Shown here one piece after another: positions 9,986 to 17,508 of a DNA stretch of 64,000 nucleotides. The stretch covers positions 927,372 through 991,371 of the forward strand of contig NZ_KI632511.1 of assembly GCF_000504285.1 (NCBI RefSeq), read 5' to 3'. The notes under the pieces were generated by a model. The model was given only the letters and a program-made list of their open reading frames with translations. It ran no database searches and was not told the DNA's origin. A program made the position numbers and the translations under genes. This stretch comes from Actinospica robiniae DSM 44927 (lineage in GTDB: Bacteria > Actinomycetota > Actinomycetes > Streptomycetales > Catenulisporaceae). The first letter of the stretch is position 1, and each line of letters begins with the position of its first letter.

Positions 9986-11419
9986 TCACCCCACCGCGGT
10001 GCGCGGCCGGGCCGTCGCGTCGGCGGGTTCGAAGATCGCCGCCGTGTGCGCCGCGCTGGCCTTGGCCCGAGCCCCGGTGGTGAGGATACCGAGGGTGCCG
10101 ATCACCACGCCGCAGCCGACGACCAGCCACCAGCACAGGTGGCTCGCGTGGGTGAAGGTTCCGCCGGAGGCCAGGATCGAGCCGAAGATCGCGACGCCGA
10201 GCGAGCTGCCGACCTGCCGGCTGGTGGAGGCGACCGCGGCCGCCACGCCGGCCTGGCTGCGCGGCATCCCGGAGACCGCCGCGTTCGTGATCGGCGAGTT
10301 GACCAGGCCGAAGCCCAGGCCCATGAACACGTAGGCGACGCTGACCTCGATGAGCGAAGTGGTGGCGGTGAAGGAGGTCATCATCAGGGCGGCCACCAGT
10401 GTCGCGACCGAGGCGCCGACCAGCGGGACGCGCGGGCCCAGGGAGCCGACCAGGCGCCCGGAGAGCGGCGCGGAGACCAGGTTCGCCGCCGCCATCGGCA
10501 GCGTCAGCAGGCCCGCGTGCACGGCCGAGTAGCCGCGCTGGTCCTGCAGATACAGGGCGTTGAGGAAGAGGAATCCGCCGAGGGAGAGGAACGCGCACAC
10601 CGCGATCACGGTCGCGCCGGAGAACGGCAGCGAACGGAAGAACCTCGGGTCGATCAGCGGCTGCTCGCGCCGGCCCTCGTACGGGACGAGCAGGCCGGCC
10701 GCGATCACGGCGACCGCGAACAGGCCGATGATCAGACTGCTGCCCCAGCCGTGCCGCGGGCCCTCGATGATGGCGTAGGTCGCGCAGGCCAGGATCGCCA
10801 CGACCAGGCCCTGGCCGACCGGGTCGAAGCGGCGCGCCTTCGGCGCCCGGGACTCCGGCACGAACAGCTTGGTCAGCACCAGCGCGGCGATGCCGACCGG
10901 GACGTTGACCCAGAAGATGCCGCGCCAGCCGATCTCGGTCACCAGCACGCCGCCGATCACCGGGCCGAGCGCCATGGACAGGCCGAACACCGCGCTCCAC
11001 ACGCCGATCGCGCGGGCGCGCTCCTTCGGCTCGGTGAAGGTGTTGGTGATGATCGACATGGCCACCGGGTTGAGCATGCTGCCGCCGAGCGCCTGGAGCA
11101 CCCGGGCCCCCACCAGCCAGCCGAGGCTGGGCGCGAGCGAGCACAGCAGCGAGCCGAGCGTGAACAGCAGCAGCCCGGTGCGGAAGATCCGGCGGCGGCC
11201 GAGCCGGTCCGCGGTGGAGCCGGCCAGCATCAGGAACGAGGCCAGCACCAGGGTGTAGGCGTCCATGATCCACTGCAGGCCGGAGAGCGGCGCGTGGAAG
11301 TCCTGCTGGATGGTGGGCAGCGCCACGTTCACGATGGTCACGTCGAGACCCACGATGAACAGGCTCATACAGCAGATCGCCAGCACCAGCTGGCGTCGCT
11401 TCGCCGTGAGCTCCGGCAC
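9986..11419 (-). CDS. MFS drug exporter, DHA2 (EmrB/QacA) type
   Basis: 477 aa with about 14 transmembrane helices. Motif A of the major facilitator family is present (GSTADRLGRRRIFRTGL), together with the drug:H+ antiporter helix-5 motif (LGPVIGGVL). The first helix carries LDVTIVNVALPTI, the DHA2 motif D1. It should expel lipophilic drugs in exchange for protons. Start is GTG 11419, with GAGGGGG 7 nt upstream. The downstream MarR gene is nearly contiguous. Confidence 0.92.
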   Translation of the reverse strand: MPELTAKRRQLVLAICCMSLFIVGLDVTIVNVALPTIQQDFHAPLSGLQWIMDAYTLVLASFLMLAGSTADRLGRRRIFRTGLLLFTLGSLLCSLAPSLGWLVGARVLQALGGSMLNPVAMSIITNTFTEPKERARAIGVWSAVFGLSMALGPVIGGVLVTEIGWRGIFWVNVPVGIAALVLTKLFVPESRAPKARRFDPVGQGLVVAILACATYAIIEGPRHGWGSSLIIGLFAVAVIAAGLLVPYEGRREQPLIDPRFFRSLPFSGATVIAVCAFLSLGGFLFLNALYLQDQRGYSAVHAGLLTLPMAAANLVSAPLSGRLVGSLGPRVPLVGASVATLVAALMMTSFTATTSLIEVSVAYVFMGLGFGLVNSPITNAAVSGMPRSQAGVAAAVASTSRQVGSSLGVAIFGSILASGGTFTHASHLCWWLVVGCGVVIGTLGILTTGARAKASAAHTAAIFEPADATARPRTAVG

Positions 11420-11443
11420 GGGTACCCCCTCGATACATTGGTT

Positions 11444-11465
11444 GTGCTATTAGAACTATTAACAC
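11444..11465. promoter_or_regulatory. Candidate MarR operator
   Basis: A 22-bp imperfect palindrome, GTGnTAnTAGnnCTAnTAnCAC, with 8 of 11 position pairs complementary. It lies 25 bp upstream of the exporter GTG and 100 bp from the divergent methyltransferase, in an unusually AT-rich patch. The position and symmetry fit autoregulation of the exporter-MarR operon. Confidence 0.6.
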
Positions 11466-11566
11466 GGTACAACTATCTCAATGGCTCCGGCAAGGCGGTC
11501 CACCTGGTGGTCGGACGGAGAAAACCGCTGGTGGCCGGACCCGGCGGCGCGCTAGCCTCGCCGCCC

Positions 11567-12442
11567 GTGACCGAAACGACGCGAGTGGCCGACGTGACCA
11601 CGGAGACCGCCCCGACCACGGCGGGCGCGACCCCTGCGGAGCCCGCCTGGCTCGCGCTCAACCGGGCCAACTGGAACCAGCGGGTGCCCATCCACGCCGC
11701 CAGCCGCGCCTACGACCTGACCGGCTTCGTCGCGGACGGCCGTCAGCTGCCCGCCTTCGAGGTCGAGGAACTCGGCGACGTGGCCGGCAAGAGCCTGCTG
11801 CACCTGCAGTGCCACATCGGCACCGACACACTCTCCTGGGCCCGGGCCGGCGCCACCGTGACCGGCCTGGACTTCTCCGCCGCGGCGATCGAGGTGGCGC
11901 GCGGGCTCGCCGAGGAGATCGGCGCCGCCGACGCCCGCTTCGTCGTCTCAGACGTCTACAACGCCCCGGACGCGCTCGGCCACGCCGTGTACGACGTCGT
12001 CTACACCGGCCTCGGCGCGCTGTGCTGGCTTCCGGACATCGAGCGGTGGGCGCGCACGGTGGCCGAGCTGATCGCGCCGGGCGGCTGCCTCTACCTGGTC
12101 GAGTTCCACCCGGTCACGGACATGTTCGACGAAAATGCGACGACCGTGCGCTTCGACTACTTCGACGCCGACGCCCAGGTGTGGGACAACGACCACACCT
12201 ACACCGACGGCGACAAGCTCGGCTCGGCGACCGTCACCCACCAGTTCGCGCACACCCTCGGCACGATCATCAGCTCCCTGATCGCCGCCGGGCTGCGCCT
12301 GGAGTTCCTGCACGAGTACGACTTCACGATGTTCCCGCGCTTCGCGGAGCTCGAGCAGCACGCCGGCGGCTTCAGCTTCCCGGCCGGGCAGCCCCGGATG
12401 CCGCTGCTCTACTCGCTGCGCGCGACCAAGGCGAACATCTGA
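11567..12442 (+). CDS. Class I SAM-dependent methyltransferase
   Basis: 291 aa. The Rossmann motif I region is LLHLQCHIGTDTLSWARAGATVTGLDFSAAAI, with an unusual HLQCHIGTD in place of the usual DxGxGxG. Later come the strand-4 segment YDVVYTGLGALCWLP and LIAPGGCLYLVEFHPV. The N-terminal WLALNRANWNQRVPIH is typical of a widespread actinobacterial methyltransferase group of unknown substrate. The GTG start at 11567 is assigned because upstream sequence is intergenic in character. It is transcribed divergently from the MFS exporter. Confidence 0.8.
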   Translation: MTETTRVADVTTETAPTTAGATPAEPAWLALNRANWNQRVPIHAASRAYDLTGFVADGRQLPAFEVEELGDVAGKSLLHLQCHIGTDTLSWARAGATVTGLDFSAAAIEVARGLAEEIGAADARFVVSDVYNAPDALGHAVYDVVYTGLGALCWLPDIERWARTVAELIAPGGCLYLVEFHPVTDMFDENATTVRFDYFDADAQVWDNDHTYTDGDKLGSATVTHQFAHTLGTIISSLIAAGLRLEFLHEYDFTMFPRFAELEQHAGGFSFPAGQPRMPLLYSLRATKANI

Positions 12443-12476
12443 ATATGCGGATCATCAGCTGATCAAGCTGGAGTTC

Positions 12477-12514
12477 TTGGTCGGAGGCCTTCCACGCGCC
12501 TATCATGCTGTGCA
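12477..12514 (+). promoter_or_regulatory. Promoter of a leaderless short-peptide transcript
   Basis: A -35 box TTGGTC (12477-12482), an 18-bp spacer and a -10 box TATCAT (12501-12506) put the expected transcription start at about 12513-12514, on the A of the peptide's ATG. The mRNA would therefore begin with the leader peptide. Confidence 0.6.
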
Positions 12515-12609
12515 TGCGAGCCCTCCGTAGTCGACCCGTCCCGCTGGTGCGGCGCGGGCACATCGACTACGGCCGCGTGTGGTCGGCCTCCTGTCCGTCG
12601 GGCCGCTGA
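12514..12609 (+). CDS. Putative Cys-containing leader peptide upstream of thioredoxin
   Basis: A 31-residue ORF. Its second half reads LVRRGHIDYGRVWSASCP. This matches the pattern (LVxRRHVDLxRVxSAxC) of short actinobacterial putative leader peptides found ahead of sulfur and redox genes. It ends 37 nt before the thioredoxin start. The single Cys codon near the end (TGT at the SASC position) fits a role in sensing cysteine supply by translation or attenuation, but no terminator/antiterminator pair was worked out here. An in-frame ATG at 12505 would overlap the -10 box and is less likely. Confidence 0.65.
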   Translation: MRALRSRPVPLVRRGHIDYGRVWSASCPSGR

Positions 12610-12646
12610 GACCCGACGTCGACCCCCGACCCCTGGACGGACTCCC

Positions 12647-13102
12647 GTGAACCCAGGCCTGCTCACCGCCCTGCTCGTGCTGCTCGCCGCCAGCGCCTTC
12701 GGCCTGTGGCGCCGCCGCACCGACGGACGCATGCGCCCCAGCCAGACCGTTGCGGCCCCCGCGGCCCCCGCGGAAGGCGAAGCGGCCGGACCGGCCGGGC
12801 CGATCACCGAGCCGGTGCTCGGCGGCCCGCTGGGCGAGCGTGCCACGCTGGTGCAGTTCAGCTCCGCCTTCTGCGCCCCGTGCCGGGCCACCCGCACGGT
12901 GCTGGCCACCGTCGCCTCCGACCTCGACGGCGTCACCCACTACGACCTGGACGCCGAGTCGCACCTCGAACTCGTGCGCGCGCTCGACATCCGGCGCACC
13001 CCCACCACCCTCGTGCTCGACGCCTCCGGCCGGGAGACCGCCCGGGCCGGGGGAGTGCCGCGGCGCGAGCAGGTGCTCGCGGCCGTCGCCGCCGCCGGCT
13101 GA
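12647..13102 (+). CDS. Membrane-anchored thioredoxin-like protein
   Basis: 151 aa. An N-terminal hydrophobic anchor (LLTALLVLLAASAFGLW, residues 4-20) is followed by a thioredoxin fold with the active site FCAPC and the cis-Pro loop RRTPTTLVL. It should catalyse thiol-disulfide exchange at the membrane surface. The GTG start has GGACGGA 7 nt upstream. It is followed 57 nt later by DUF4395, and thioredoxin/DUF4395 pairs are common in actinomycetes, which suggests joint work in sulfur or redox metabolism. Probably controlled through the upstream leader peptide. Confidence 0.85.
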   Translation: MNPGLLTALLVLLAASAFGLWRRRTDGRMRPSQTVAAPAAPAEGEAAGPAGPITEPVLGGPLGERATLVQFSSAFCAPCRATRTVLATVASDLDGVTHYDLDAESHLELVRALDIRRTPTTLVLDASGRETARAGGVPRREQVLAAVAAAG

Positions 13103-13159
13103 GCGCCGTTTACCCCGATGCCGCTTTCCACCCCGTCTTCCGCCTGACCGGAGCCCGCC

Positions 13160-13606
13160 ATGTCCAGCAGTGCCGTCGCGCCACCCTTCATCGACCCGCG
13201 CGGCCCGCGCTTCGGCGCCGCCGTCACCACCGTCGTCCTGATCGTCGTGCTGGCCACCGGCTCGGCCTGGCTGCTGGCCGCGCAGACGCTCGTGTTCGCC
13301 CTCAGCGCCTTCTCCGGCCTGCGCCTTTCGCCCTACGGCCGGCTCTACCGGCGGCTGGTGCGCCCGCGCCTCGGCCCGCCGAGCGAGCTGGAGAACCCGG
13401 CACCGCCGATCTTCGCCCAGTTCGTCGGCCTCGGCTTCGCGCTGCTGGGCACGGTCGCCTACCTGCTCGGCTGGGATGCGGTGGGCATCGCGCTGACCAG
13501 CTGCGCACTGGCCGCCGCGTTCCTCAACGCCGCGTTCGACTTCTGCCTCGGCTGCGAGATCTATCTGCTGGCGCATCGGGCGGCGCCGCGACGCCGCCCG
13601 GCCTAG
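13160..13606 (+). CDS. DUF4395 domain membrane protein
   Basis: 148 aa. DUF4395 features are the N-terminal FIDPRGPRFGA, two paired hydrophobic regions (TTVVLIVVLATGSAWLLAAQTLVFAL and QFVGLGFALLGTVAYLLGW), and the C-terminal DFCLGCEIYLL with a CxxC pair next to the membrane. It follows the thioredoxin gene and probably shares its transcript. The family often lies beside thioredoxin or sulfurtransferase genes, and the CxxC may be a redox partner site (inference). Start ATG has GGAG 8 nt upstream. Confidence 0.85.
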   Translation: MSSSAVAPPFIDPRGPRFGAAVTTVVLIVVLATGSAWLLAAQTLVFALSAFSGLRLSPYGRLYRRLVRPRLGPPSELENPAPPIFAQFVGLGFALLGTVAYLLGWDAVGIALTSCALAAAFLNAAFDFCLGCEIYLLAHRAAPRRRPA

Positions 13607-13614
13607 CGCGAGCT

Positions 13615-13980
13615 GATGATCGGCTGGGTGTTGGTGCGGTGCGGTCGTCTGTCGGGTGAGGTGGTGGTCGTGGTGTGGGCGGCCGCTTCGCGTCGCCTGG
13701 TTCTGCTGTCCACCCGCCCACCCGTTGCGTTGGCGGGGTGGGCTGCGGTTTCAAGATTTCGCCTCCGGCGGGGGCCTTCTCTCGGAGAGAGTGCCGGGTT
13801 CTGTGGGGTGCTGGCGTGGCGGGGCGGGCTGGGGTTGGGGGTGGTGGGGTTGCGGGTGTGGGTTCTCTCCTCGGTCGGTCCCCGGAGGCAATCAGGAACC
13901 TGCCGGGAGGTCAAGCGGCGGTGACTTGGGTTGGTGCTTGATTCTGCATCGCGCCGCTTGACCTCCCGGCAGAACCCTGA
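13615..13980 (+). repeat. Left copy of a ~350-bp inverted non-coding repeat
   Basis: This stretch is related in inverted orientation to 18877-19216. Shared landmarks in order are GATGATCnGCTGnGTG, GGCGGCCGCTTCGCGTCGCC, CCACCCGCCCACCCGTT, CTGCGGTTTCAAGAT, CTCGGAGAGAGTGCCGGGTT, GGTGCTGGCGTGG, TTCTCTCCTCGGT and CCCCGGAGGCAATCAGG, then a long hairpin. The copies have diverged, so they are not a recent duplication. Together they bracket the insertion-sequence island. A minus-strand frame runs through this region but follows repeat structure, not codon bias. Confidence 0.8.
13900..13972. other. Long hairpin (21-bp perfect stem, 31-nt loop) in the left repeat
   Basis: Arms at 13900-13920 and 13952-13972 are perfect reverse complements, with core CTGCCGGGAGGTCAAGCGGC. 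The same arms recur at 18885-18905 and 18937-18957 with the same 31-nt loop length, while the loops differ at roughly a third or more of positions. A conserved stem with a changed loop suggests that structure, as RNA or extruded DNA, is what is kept. No U-tract follows either arm. Confidence 0.75.
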
Positions 13981-14080
13981 TCGGGCTTCGCCTGCCCGAC
14001 CGAGGAGAGAGCCCACCCCCTGGGGGAGTGGTGCGAGCTGCACTCGGGCCGGCGCGGGTGGCCCGGCCGCGCTTGATGCC

Positions 14081-14510
14081 GAATTCTGCAGCGCCCTGAT
14101 CCGAGCATCGCGATCCTCGATCCGCGCGAGTGAGTCCCGTGGTCCGGCTGTGCTTGGTGCTGAATCCTGCACGACTGGATCCGATCCATCCCGATCCCAG
14201 ACCTCGCGGAGGAATCCCGCAGGCTGGCGCCCGATCCGGAAGAATTCTGCATCACTCTCATCCGGCCATCCCGATGCCCGATCCGCTCGAAGGGGTCGGT
14301 GGCCCGGTCGCGCTTGCTGCTGAATCGTGCATCGCCGTGGTCCGATCCACCCCGAATTCCAGATCTTGCTGCAGAACTCCACAGGCTGGCTGGCTGGGTT
14401 CGGTGCGGAAGGATTCTGCATCACCGTGGGCCGATCCATCCGGTGCTCATGCGAAGCGCACGATCGCGTGGCTCGGTCGCACGCCGAGGGGAAATCCTGC
14501 ACCGTCTTCG
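14081..14510. repeat. Degenerate ~81-bp tandem array
   Basis: The motif GAATTCTGCATC and variants start at 14081, 14162, 14242, 14322, 14411 and 14492, giving spacings of 81, 80, 80, 89 and 81 bp. GTCCGATCCATCCCGAT follows it in several units. The unit ends alternate: GTGGCCCGGTCGCGCTTGCTGCT types precede units 1, 2, 4 and 6, and CAGGCTGGC...CGGAA types precede units 3 and 5. The array is therefore built of ~161-170 bp dimers. The same TTCTGCAT motif sits in the loop of the neighbouring hairpin. No codon bias or family is visible. Confidence 0.7.
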
Positions 14511-15369: not shown

Positions 15370-16862
15370 TGGAGTGTGTAAGCGGGTGACCTGTTGAGCA
15401 GCAGGTGGTAGTGCCTGGCTGCTAGAAATGGTGACACGCTGTGAGTGGCAAGAAGATGGACCAGGTGCTGTCGGTGGAGGCCGAGGAGCATCTGGTGGAG
15501 GAGCTCGAGCAGGTCGAGGGTGCCCGTCGGGTCGCTGCGATCCTGGCTCCGGAGGCGATCGACTCTCTGCTGGCCGAGGCCGAGAAGGCCGGGGGCGGGG
15601 CGCAGGAGCTGCTGGCTGCGATCACCAAGGCGGTGCTCGAGCGGGCGCTGCAGGTGGAGATGGCGGATCACCTCGGCTACGAGAAGGGGGATCCGGCCGG
15701 GGTCGGCTCGCCCAACTCGCGCAACGGCTCCTACCCCAAGACCGTGGTCACCGCGTCCGGGCCGGTGCGCCTGCAGGTCCCGCGTGATCGGGCCGGCTCG
15801 TTCGAGCCGCGGATCGTGCCCAAGCGCACCAAGAGGCTCGGGCAGGTCGACGAGATGATCCTCTCGCTCTACGCCCGGGGGATGTCCACCCGCGACATCC
15901 GCGACCACCTCGCCGAGGTCTACGGCGCCGAGATCTCCCCCGCGCTGGTCTCCAACGTGACCGAGGTGGTGCGCGAGGAGATCGCCGAATGGCAGAACCG
16001 CGCGCTCGACGCGGTGTATCCGATCCTTTACATCGACGCGATCGTGGTGAAGGTCCGCGAGTCCGGCAGCGTCGTGAACAAGGCCGCGCACCTGGTGATC
16101 GGCGTGGACACCGACGGGTACAAGCAGGTGCTCGGCATCTGGATCGAGCAGAAGGAGGGCTCCCGGTTCTGGCTCAACGTCCTGACCTCCCTGCGCAACA
16201 GGGGCCTGAAAGACGCCCTCGTCGTGTGCTGCGACGGGCTGAGCGGGCTGCCCGAGGCGATCGGGCACGTATGGCCCGAGGCGATCGTGCAGACCTGCGT
16301 GGTCCACTTGATCCGCACCTCGATGCGGTATGTCGCCTACGCCGACCGCAAGAAGATCGCCGCCGCGCTGCGCCCGATCTACACCGCCGCGAACGCCTCG
16401 GCCGCCGAGGCCGCGCTCGAAGCGCTGCGCGGCACGTTCGCCCGCAGCGCACCCGGGGTGATCTCCGCATGGGAGCGGTCCTGGGAGACGTTCATACCGT
16501 TTCTCGACTTCCCCCTCGAGCTGCGACGGGTCATCTACACGACCAACGCCATCGAGTCGATGAACTTCCAGCTCCGCAAAATCAGCAAGACCCGCGGGCA
16601 CTTTCCCGACGACGACGCCGCGATCAAACTGCTCTACCTCGGCATCCGCCGCATCGAGGGCCGCCACATCGACGGCGAGGGCCGCCACGTGCCGGCCGGA
16701 CAGCTACGCGGCACCGGAACCTACGGCTGGAAGCGGGCCCTGAACGACTTCGCGATCCGCTTCCCCGGCAAACTCCCGGTCTGACCAGCAAAACCGTCAC
16801 CGACGGCAACCGCCGACGGAGACCCGAAGAAGGAAGAACCGTCCCCAAACTTACACACTCCA
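15370..16862 (+). mobile_element. Complete IS256-family insertion sequence
   Basis: The element is bounded by inverted ends TGGAGTGTGTAAG (15370-15382) and its reverse complement (16850-16862). It is about 1.49 kb and holds one transposase gene. Expected 8-bp target duplications are not seen (GTGTCTAA on the left, ATTGACAA on the right). Since the left flank is an IS4 remnant and the right flank an IS3 remnant, a deletion or recombination after insertion is likely. Confidence 0.8.
15441..16784 (+). CDS. IS256 (mutator-type) transposase
   Basis: 447 aa, a full-length mutator transposase. It shows the N-terminal region with GYEKGD...RNGSYPKTV, the catalytic Asp regions YPILYIDAIVVKVR and VVCCDGLSGLPEAI, the mutator signature around VVHLIRTSMRYV, and the catalytic Glu in YTTNAIESMNFQLRK. 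All parts look intact and the frame is unbroken, so the enzyme could be active on its own ends. The start is GTG 15441. Confidence 0.93.
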   Translation: MSGKKMDQVLSVEAEEHLVEELEQVEGARRVAAILAPEAIDSLLAEAEKAGGGAQELLAAITKAVLERALQVEMADHLGYEKGDPAGVGSPNSRNGSYPKTVVTASGPVRLQVPRDRAGSFEPRIVPKRTKRLGQVDEMILSLYARGMSTRDIRDHLAEVYGAEISPALVSNVTEVVREEIAEWQNRALDAVYPILYIDAIVVKVRESGSVVNKAAHLVIGVDTDGYKQVLGIWIEQKEGSRFWLNVLTSLRNRGLKDALVVCCDGLSGLPEAIGHVWPEAIVQTCVVHLIRTSMRYVAYADRKKIAAALRPIYTAANASAAEAALEALRGTFARSAPGVISAWERSWETFIPFLDFPLELRRVIYTTNAIESMNFQLRKISKTRGHFPDDDAAIKLLYLGIRRIEGRHIDGEGRHVPAGQLRGTGTYGWKRALNDFAIRFPGKLPV

Positions 16863-17508
16863 ATTGACAAGCCCCTCGATCCGCGACGCGTTCTCCCGCA
16901 AGGTCATCGCGTGGGAGAGCAGCGATGTCGCGGACGCGGACCTGGTGTGCGCGGTCCTCGAGTACGCGCTGCGCTCCAGGCGCCCGCCTGCCGACGGCAG
17001 CCTCGTGCACCACGCGGACCACGGGTCGCAGTACACCTCGATCAAGCTGAGCACGCGGCTGGTGCGGGCCGGGATCACCGCGTCCATGGGCACGGTCGGG
17101 GACTCCTACGACAACGCCCTGGCCGAGAACATGTGGTCCACGCTCAAGACCGAGTGCGTGCGCCGCCGGGAGTTCGCCACCCGGGCCGAGGCGAACCAGG
17201 CCCTGTTCGAATACCTCGACGGGTTCTACAACCCGCGAAGGATCCAGCGCAATCTCGGCTACCGATCCCCGGACGAGTACGAAGCCGCCCACGACGCTGG
17301 CGAGTTGACCGCGGCCGACCTCGAGCGACTGGCGCGCGATGCGACCCGTCGCCGCCACCGCCGCACCGAGCGCGCGAAAAGCCCGGCACTACCGGCCGGC
17401 CCGCAGGCCCGGCAACTGCCCGGACAGCGACCCACACCCACCGCCAAACGGGTACCCCCATCCGGGCGAACCCGGCCACAACAAGAAAACACCAGATCAA
17501 CGGGCTAG
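16863..17508 (+). pseudogene. IS3-family transposase OrfB, 3' fragment
   Basis: This is the retroviral-integrase-like (rve) C-terminal half of an IS3 OrfB: DAFSRKVIAWE, then HHADHGSQYTS (second catalytic Asp region), MGTVGDSYDNALAENMWSTLKTE (catalytic Glu) and FYNPRRIQRNLGYRSPDEYE near the end. The N-terminal half, OrfA and the first Asp are missing; the fragment starts abruptly at the right end of IS256. An extra ~60-residue basic, Pro-rich tail follows the normal family end. Confidence 0.85.

Follow-up and report, generated by a model that had tools for sequence, protein, structure and literature searches.

A near-invariant TGT cysteine codon in a family of actinobacterial leader peptides, one of which precedes a thioredoxin-DUF4395 operon in Actinospica robiniae

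An actinobacterial family of short leader peptides carries a cysteine codon that is almost always TGT. At the position nine residues after an invariant aspartate (hereafter D+9), the Cys codon is TGT in 254 of 257 cases (174/175 in the first set and 80/82 in later loci), and this codon rule is of more interest than the operon in which the present member was found. The window, that is, the whole stretch of 64,000 nucleotides of Actinospica robiniae DNA analyzed here, encodes the 31-residue peptide MRALRSRPVPLVRRGHIDYGRVWSASCPSGR at 12514..12609 (+ strand, ATG to TGA), 37 nt 5' of a thioredoxin-like gene. The leader is real and conserved and, to judge from its sequence, is most likely a cysteine-supply leader. 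We consider it probable that it acts in cis as a one-codon cysteine gauge, in which a pause at TGT would raise the expression of thioredoxin and DUF4395. The features of the region are as follows.

12477..12482 (+): -35 element TTGGTC, weak, with a 3/6 match to TTGACA; spacer 18
12501..12506 (+): -10 element TATCAT, which fits the actinobacterial TAnnnT; 7 nt 5' of the ATG
12514..12609 (+): leader ORF, 31 aa and TGA; the ATG is the predicted transcription start (leaderless)
12538..12597 (+): conserved core of 20 residues, VPLVRRGHIDYGRVWSASCP, from an ungapped alignment with 14 paralogs of the same genome
12565..12567 (+): invariant Asp codon, register position 0 (D in 180/180 members)
12592..12595 (+): Cys27 codon TGT and the following C, the proposed sensing codon, from the TGT invariance in the family
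12610..12646 (+): gap between leader and thioredoxin gene, 37 nt, C-rich and G-poor (19 C, 9 G)
12635..12642 (+): ribosome-site region of the thioredoxin gene, GGACGGAC; GGACGGA is also present in Actinospica durhamensis (L006)
12647..13102 (+): thioredoxin-like gene with a CAPC motif (PF00085, E 3.1e-8)
13160..13606 (+): DUF4395 gene (PF14340, E 1.3e-46)

The ORF, the promoter-like sequence and the operon were all found where the initial annotation of this DNA had put them. That annotation had also called the promoter well-formed, which is true of one half of it: the -10 element fits TAnnnT, but the -35 element matches at only three of six positions, and a strict sigma-70 scan of 11400-14400 found no promoter. 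The claim of a leaderless-compatible start is borne out by the -10 box 7 nt from ATG 12514, a spacing conserved in A. durhamensis. S. lividans genes mapped as leaderless share this geometry, with 4-9 nt, mostly 5-7 nt, between the -10 element and the start, as given in an excerpt of PMC8079986. An alternative ATG at 12505 would open a 34-aa ORF. Since this ATG runs into the -10 box, 12514 is the sensible start, and transcription is predicted to begin there.

The layout is the same in A. durhamensis, whose promoter consists of TTGGTT, a spacer of 17, TATCAT, 7 nt and the ATG, and whose DUF4395 protein is 83% identical to that of the window. The two leaders differ in 6 of 31 codons, and four of these differences change the residue. 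The gap between leader and thioredoxin gene is 37 nt in the window and 67 nt in A. durhamensis, with a 31-nt indel in the alignment; GGACGGA at the thioredoxin ribosome site is kept. Since the promoter spacing and the peptide are kept and the gap carries an indel, the leader and promoter are better conserved than the gap.

Inspection of the thioredoxin-like protein by eye showed that its N-terminus is hydrophobic over a stretch and that it contains the CAPC motif, and no solved structures for DUF4395 were found by sequence. A methyltransferase-domain gene (11567-12442) lies directly 5' on the same strand, its stop 34 nt before the -35 element. Right behind DUF4395, 13854-14020 holds a nested pair of inverted repeats (30 nt, 90%; 25 nt, 92%), on which fell the one match of an Rfam scan of 11000-14500, to a miRNA model and far under the cut-off. 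Degenerate direct repeats with GAATTCTGCA-like words, several of them spaced about 160 nt, occupy 14057-14424 between DUF4395 and a transposase. This stretch behind the operon is rich in insertions, with the Mutator-family (PF00872) transposase at 15441-16784 followed by an integrase-core (rve) frame at 16864-17508.

Membership of the window leader in the family was analyzed with a profile of 165 different core peptides, from which the window leader and its A. durhamensis twin had been left out. In six frames of the 64 kb, this independent profile matched the leader with 39.6 bits (E 1.5e-11), while the next-best match in the window reached 4.6 bits and the best match in the reversed window 6.6 bits. 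A chance origin of the leader match is excluded. Reversed-sequence controls gave no match of at least 8 bits across 104 DUF4395 loci and a single one, of 14.0 bits, when all 285 loci were taken. The window leader shows the family register without gaps, with R at -4, D at 0, R at +3, S/T at +6 and C at +9. Among the 180 members counted, which were found by a protein profile blind to codons, Asp is present in all 180, Arg -4 and Arg +3 in 178 each and Cys +9 in 175. Four matches, scoring 10.0-18.8 bits and either incomplete or from beyond the class, were left out of this count (L079, a stray 23-residue match, and L150, L151 and L152); none of them has Cys at D+9.

The curated model NF042936 (leader_Ms4527A) matches the window leader in one stretch, its positions 1-19 of 21 aligning with residues 12-30 of the 34-aa query from ATG 12505 (E 3.7e-5). 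The score of 23.2 bits lies below the curated cut-off of 45, by which the window leader is a relative and not a member of leader_Ms4527A. The annotation had assigned the peptide to a set of putative leader peptides that actinobacteria carry near sulfur genes. The set is real, and the profile match of 39.6 bits and the sulfur-gene neighbors agree with this assignment.

In the window leader, the single Cys among 31 residues is Cys27, located at D+9 in the C-terminal SCP that is followed by SGR. It is encoded by TGT with C as the following base, so that both codon features of the family are present. The single non-TGT Cys at D+9 in the first set is encoded by TGC. The other Cys codons in the leaders of the first set are TGT in 42 cases and TGC in 128 (42/170 TGT), and the Cys codons of their downstream ORFs are TGT in 39 and TGC in 388 (39/427 TGT). 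Fisher tests of TGT at D+9 against these two groups gave 5e-56 and 2e-111, and among 101 representatives that differ pairwise at 10 or more of 60 bases the counts were 96/97 at D+9 vs 26/106 (4e-32). Because all of these tests ignore shared ancestry, a set of later loci and a tree were added.

The later set comprised 82 new members, found at a threshold of 15 bits in 80 of 89 loci, most of which came from families of the class that the first set had lacked; the remaining loci added no member at that threshold. With a G+C content of at least 0.60, the codon at D+9 was TGT in 73/74, and the other Cys codons in the later set were TGT in 15/94. Mapping onto a tree built from 247 unique cores gave 3 changes of the third base at Cys +9, compared with 44 at Asp, 18 at His and 56 at Arg +3. 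A Cys at D+2 also holds one codon (TGC 91, TGT 6; 6 changes on the same tree). D+9 is thus not alone in its codon bias, but at D+2 the bias runs in the opposite direction, to TGC. That a rare codon should persist in 254 of 257 cases, with drift at other synonymous positions of these ORFs, speaks with unusual clarity for selection at the codon level.

The base after the D+9 codon is C in 217, T in 29, A in 10 and G in 1 (pyrimidine in 246/257), and the residue there is variable; after the Cys codons of downstream ORFs, it is C in 213, G in 212, A in 104 and T in 37. Conservation fades one base past the D+9 codon. The five of the 180 members without Cys at D+9 have GGG in two cases and a stop codon in three. 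The stop stands exactly at the place of the sensing Cys (TGA in L212 and L240, TAG in L224), and in the two leaders with GGG (L249, L271) there is another Cys earlier in the core. The invariance of TGT at D+9 supports the earlier suggestion that the Cys codon is the likely sensing element. Neither the fixed register with Cys at D+9 nor the TGT rule was found in the literature searched; the closest papers, of 2014 and 2020, lay outside the search, so this is weak evidence of absence.

The A. robiniae genome contains 18 such leaders, every one with a downstream ORF, and in 15 of the 18 peptides the core aligns without a gap. The 17 downstream ORFs scanned against Pfam matched PAPS reductase, sulfite/nitrite reductase, PALP (two), rhodanese, TauD (two), luciferase-like monooxygenase (two), FMN reductase, NMT1-type binding protein (two), ROK, GNAT (two) and DUF1684, one having no match; the eighteenth is the thioredoxin gene of the window. 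Family membership identifies PAPS reductase, sulfite reductase, rhodanese and TauD as sulfur proteins, and a sulfur link of the remaining genes is plausible. A CysO-like reading frame, recognized by eye, precedes one of the PALP genes (L090).

Matches to the family were obtained in all 60 genomes sampled from the order (E <= 0.01) and in 187/216 genomes of the class (E <= 0.001). A phylum-wide draw gave matches in 24/296 genomes, the four outside the class being weak partial matches. Downstream ORFs of the whole family (120 of 161 scanned) included 28 DUF4395, 24 rhodanese and 15 sulfite/nitrite reductase genes, a tally that is biased in that some loci had been fetched via DUF4395. A leaderless-compatible start, with TAnnnT 5-8 nt upstream, was found in 48 of the 101 representatives, against a background of 103/7212 ATG/GTG; among the other representatives, 19 starts look SD-led, 33 are of neither type and one leader is without a start.

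At DUF4395 loci, where the gene was placed by tblastn, a coding-strand leader lies within 1.5 kb upstream in 40 of 104 cases; with each locus counted once and the window kept in, the figure is 38 of 102. Two loci had been fetched twice (L006/L101 and L007/L103), and L100 is the window's own locus; L054 was counted in, and L107, in which the leader lies behind DUF4395, was counted out. Of four loci with less than 600 nt upstream, L046 has a leader and L036, L063 and L102 were scored as misses. A narrow pattern search (H-V/I-D) found a leader at only 2/74 DUF4395 loci. The presence of leaders at many of these loci indicates that the link between leader and operon is old and common. The other 64 of the 104 loci have no coding-strand leader within 1.5 kb, and the DUF4395 gene can therefore do without one.

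In 37 of the 40 leader-bearing loci, the leader lies directly 5' of DUF4395 and not of a thioredoxin gene, and most of these leaders are of the RRAVDLCRV variant. Only in the window and A. durhamensis does the leader lie 550 nt ahead with a thioredoxin gene in between. Their leaders are of the GHID..RVWS type, which is common to the PALP and GNAT leaders of A. robiniae, so the leader type and gene order of the window are so far known from two species only. Six further matches, of the HVDLARTASA.CP type and from the order, lie on the opposite strand at loci that have no coding-strand leader (L115, L122, L123, L124, L127, L129), that of L115 with an ORF 44 nt downstream. At L107, L113 and L118, same-strand leaders end about 680-710 nt past the DUF4395 start, ahead of a further gene.

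The polycysteine-encoding leaderless short ORFs of mycobacteria reportedly proved to be cysteine-responsive attenuators in the work of Canestrari et al. in 2020. They are so described in excerpts of PMC9031893 and PMC13236596, and an excerpt of Shell et al. 2015 (PMC4633059) places Cys-rich leaderless uORFs before cysA2, Rv0485 and nirA in mycobacteria. The window leader resembles the polycysteine ORFs in that it is short, has a leaderless-compatible start, carries its Cys near the C-terminus and belongs to a set found ahead of sulfur operons. Unlike them, it has one Cys and no tract, and precedes a thioredoxin-DUF4395 operon. Polycysteine leaders within our family set show the same RR..D..RV register and TGT at D+9 (LTKRRAVDLCRVAGCCCCCCSC, L277). 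The window leader thus belongs to a known kind, among which are the cysteine-responsive leaderless ORFs of mycobacteria.

Lyubetsky et al. 2014, judged by its title as it stands in a reference of PMC4833913, deals with the regulation of PF00480 or PF14340 proteins and with sulfur metabolism. PF14340 is DUF4395, and the ROK (PF00480) gene of A. robiniae also has a leader (L094), so there is overlap with that title; the paper probably covers DUF4395 operons. The leader set had been called little-studied in the initial annotation. It is less obscure than that suggests, since mycobacterial members have already been tested by others and the title of 2014 names PF14340 regulation together with sulfur metabolism.

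The one-codon gauge would work as follows. Ribosomes would load on the bare 5' end of an RNA beginning at ATG 12514 or right beside it, as the conserved promoter spacing suggests. When cysteinyl-tRNA is scarce, a ribosome would pause with the TGT of Cys27 (12592-12594) in its A site, and the exit tunnel would meanwhile hold the nascent LVRRGHID..RV.S. at a constant distance. Judging by wobble decoding and by the 3' context, the ribosome would read TGT-C more slowly than any other form of the Cys codon. By altering what becomes of the RNA behind it, the paused ribosome would raise thioredoxin and DUF4395 expression; when cysteine is ample, the ribosome would finish at 12609 and depart, and expression would stay low. 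The final step might conceivably be the freeing of the thioredoxin ribosome site, or possibly the prevention of Rho-dependent termination. From the constraint on the peptide, in which third bases vary at Arg, His and Asp, together with the constraint on one codon, we infer that the ribosome is the reader. As for the signal, redox state had also been proposed, but nothing that can be read from the DNA would favor redox over cysteine or sulfur supply.

Since residues are conserved while their synonymous third bases vary, selection acts on the peptide. In arrest leader peptides such as TnaC, conserved nascent residues stand at a fixed spacing from one critical codon. The window leader is similar in having residues at fixed spacing before one codon, although no sequence relation is claimed. 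It might be supposed that the peptide, once the tunnel has bound cysteine or a sulfur metabolite, stalls the ribosome as in TnaC or SpeFL, Cys27 being a part of the arrest motif and no gauge. Such nascent-chain arrest would account for the constant spacing from the Cys of the conserved residues that precede it (R -13, D -9, R -6, S/T -3) and would make tandem Cys codons unnecessary, as in the window leader with its one Cys. Arrest, however, needs a residue and not a codon, and by itself fails to explain the requirement for TGT and for a pyrimidine as the next base. We regard this explanation as rather unlikely.

The TGT-C could also be kept for reasons of RNA, either as a short RNA-binding motif or because the leader end masks the ribosome site of the next gene for as long as no stalled ribosome sits on that end. 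In the mycobacterial scheme, the leader end pairs with the next ribosome site, which is hidden unless the ribosome stalls. In the minimum-energy fold of 12514-12690, positions 12591-12596, with the TGT codon inside, are paired with 12635-12640 of the thioredoxin ribosome site, and the duplex of this leader/ribosome-site pair amounts to -16.5 kcal/mol. A shorter fold of the window did not use this helix, nor did A. durhamensis show one, and the leader pairing of the window was equalled by 21/100 shuffles. A modelled stall did not free the ribosome site of the window, which was paired at 0.76 and, with the footprint of the stalled ribosome masked, at 0.79.

Over 73 loci, the stretch from the Cys codon had a slight preference for the ribosome site of its own locus over those of other loci (-8.87 vs -8.21), 20/2000 permutations being as good; this is the best of six leader offsets tried, uncorrected (119, 221, 274, 56, 20 and 71 of 2000). 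The best offset begins at the Cys codon, but the effect is 0.7 kcal/mol and the other offsets gave 56 to 274. Mean pairing in the 59 testable of the 101 representatives was 1.68 vs 0.93 for shuffled sequences. For sulfite-reductase leaders, 22 orthologs are near-identical and the gaps fail to align. In addition, conservation fades one base past the codon, and ribosome sites that differ would not need an identical codon. We therefore think that RNA reasons for TGT-C are unlikely. Results on the pairing of leader and ribosome site as a general mechanism were mixed over the representatives, and the freeing of the site is a weakly supported candidate for the step after the pause.

A classical terminator attenuator was rejected, since a consensus scan found no intrinsic terminator between leader and thioredoxin gene (12610-12646). 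C exceeds G in 147/156 gaps of the family, vs 66/156 in a control, the stretch upstream of the leader. Such C-rich, G-poor gaps would suit Rho, but this composition may be general to gaps of this kind.

The invariance of UGU-pyrimidine would also be expected if it were the modification of tRNA-Cys and not its charging that is gauged. Methylthio modification at A37 lowers codon-context sensitivity, and under sulfur shortage less of it on tRNA-Cys would make UGU-C slow, so that thiolation would be sensed. Both miaB and miaA are present in the A. robiniae genome, over the cut-off. Shortage of charging, however, explains the same pattern with fewer assumptions, and we hold the modification gauge to be quite improbable. 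That the leaderless ORF brings ribosomes near a weak thioredoxin start by reinitiation, without any sensing, would fit the gap of just 37 nt and the reinitiation at leader ORFs proposed for Actinobacteria (in an excerpt of PMC4833913), but leaves the peptide core, the fixed Cys and the TGT codon unexplained and does not suit the family, in which the median gap is 89 nt; it is very improbable.

On the reading as a one-codon cysteine gauge, the thioredoxin-DUF4395 operon becomes tied to cysteine supply, and each of the 18 leaders of the A. robiniae genome would put one operon under cysteine-linked control. We would extend this to the class only tentatively, with more doubt than conviction: the UGU-pyrimidine codon at D+9 may be the class-wide sensor of a sulfur regulon that ribosomes, and no repressor, would run, with RR..D..R..S priming the ribosome, and the polycysteine leaders of mycobacteria would have elaborated on this older device. 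The annotation "putative leader peptide" is in this way turned into a precise prediction, namely that a synonymous change of TGT to TGC at this one codon would weaken sulfur regulation in many operons. If the one-codon sensor is true, a primed ribosome would need a single codon where classical attenuators need several.
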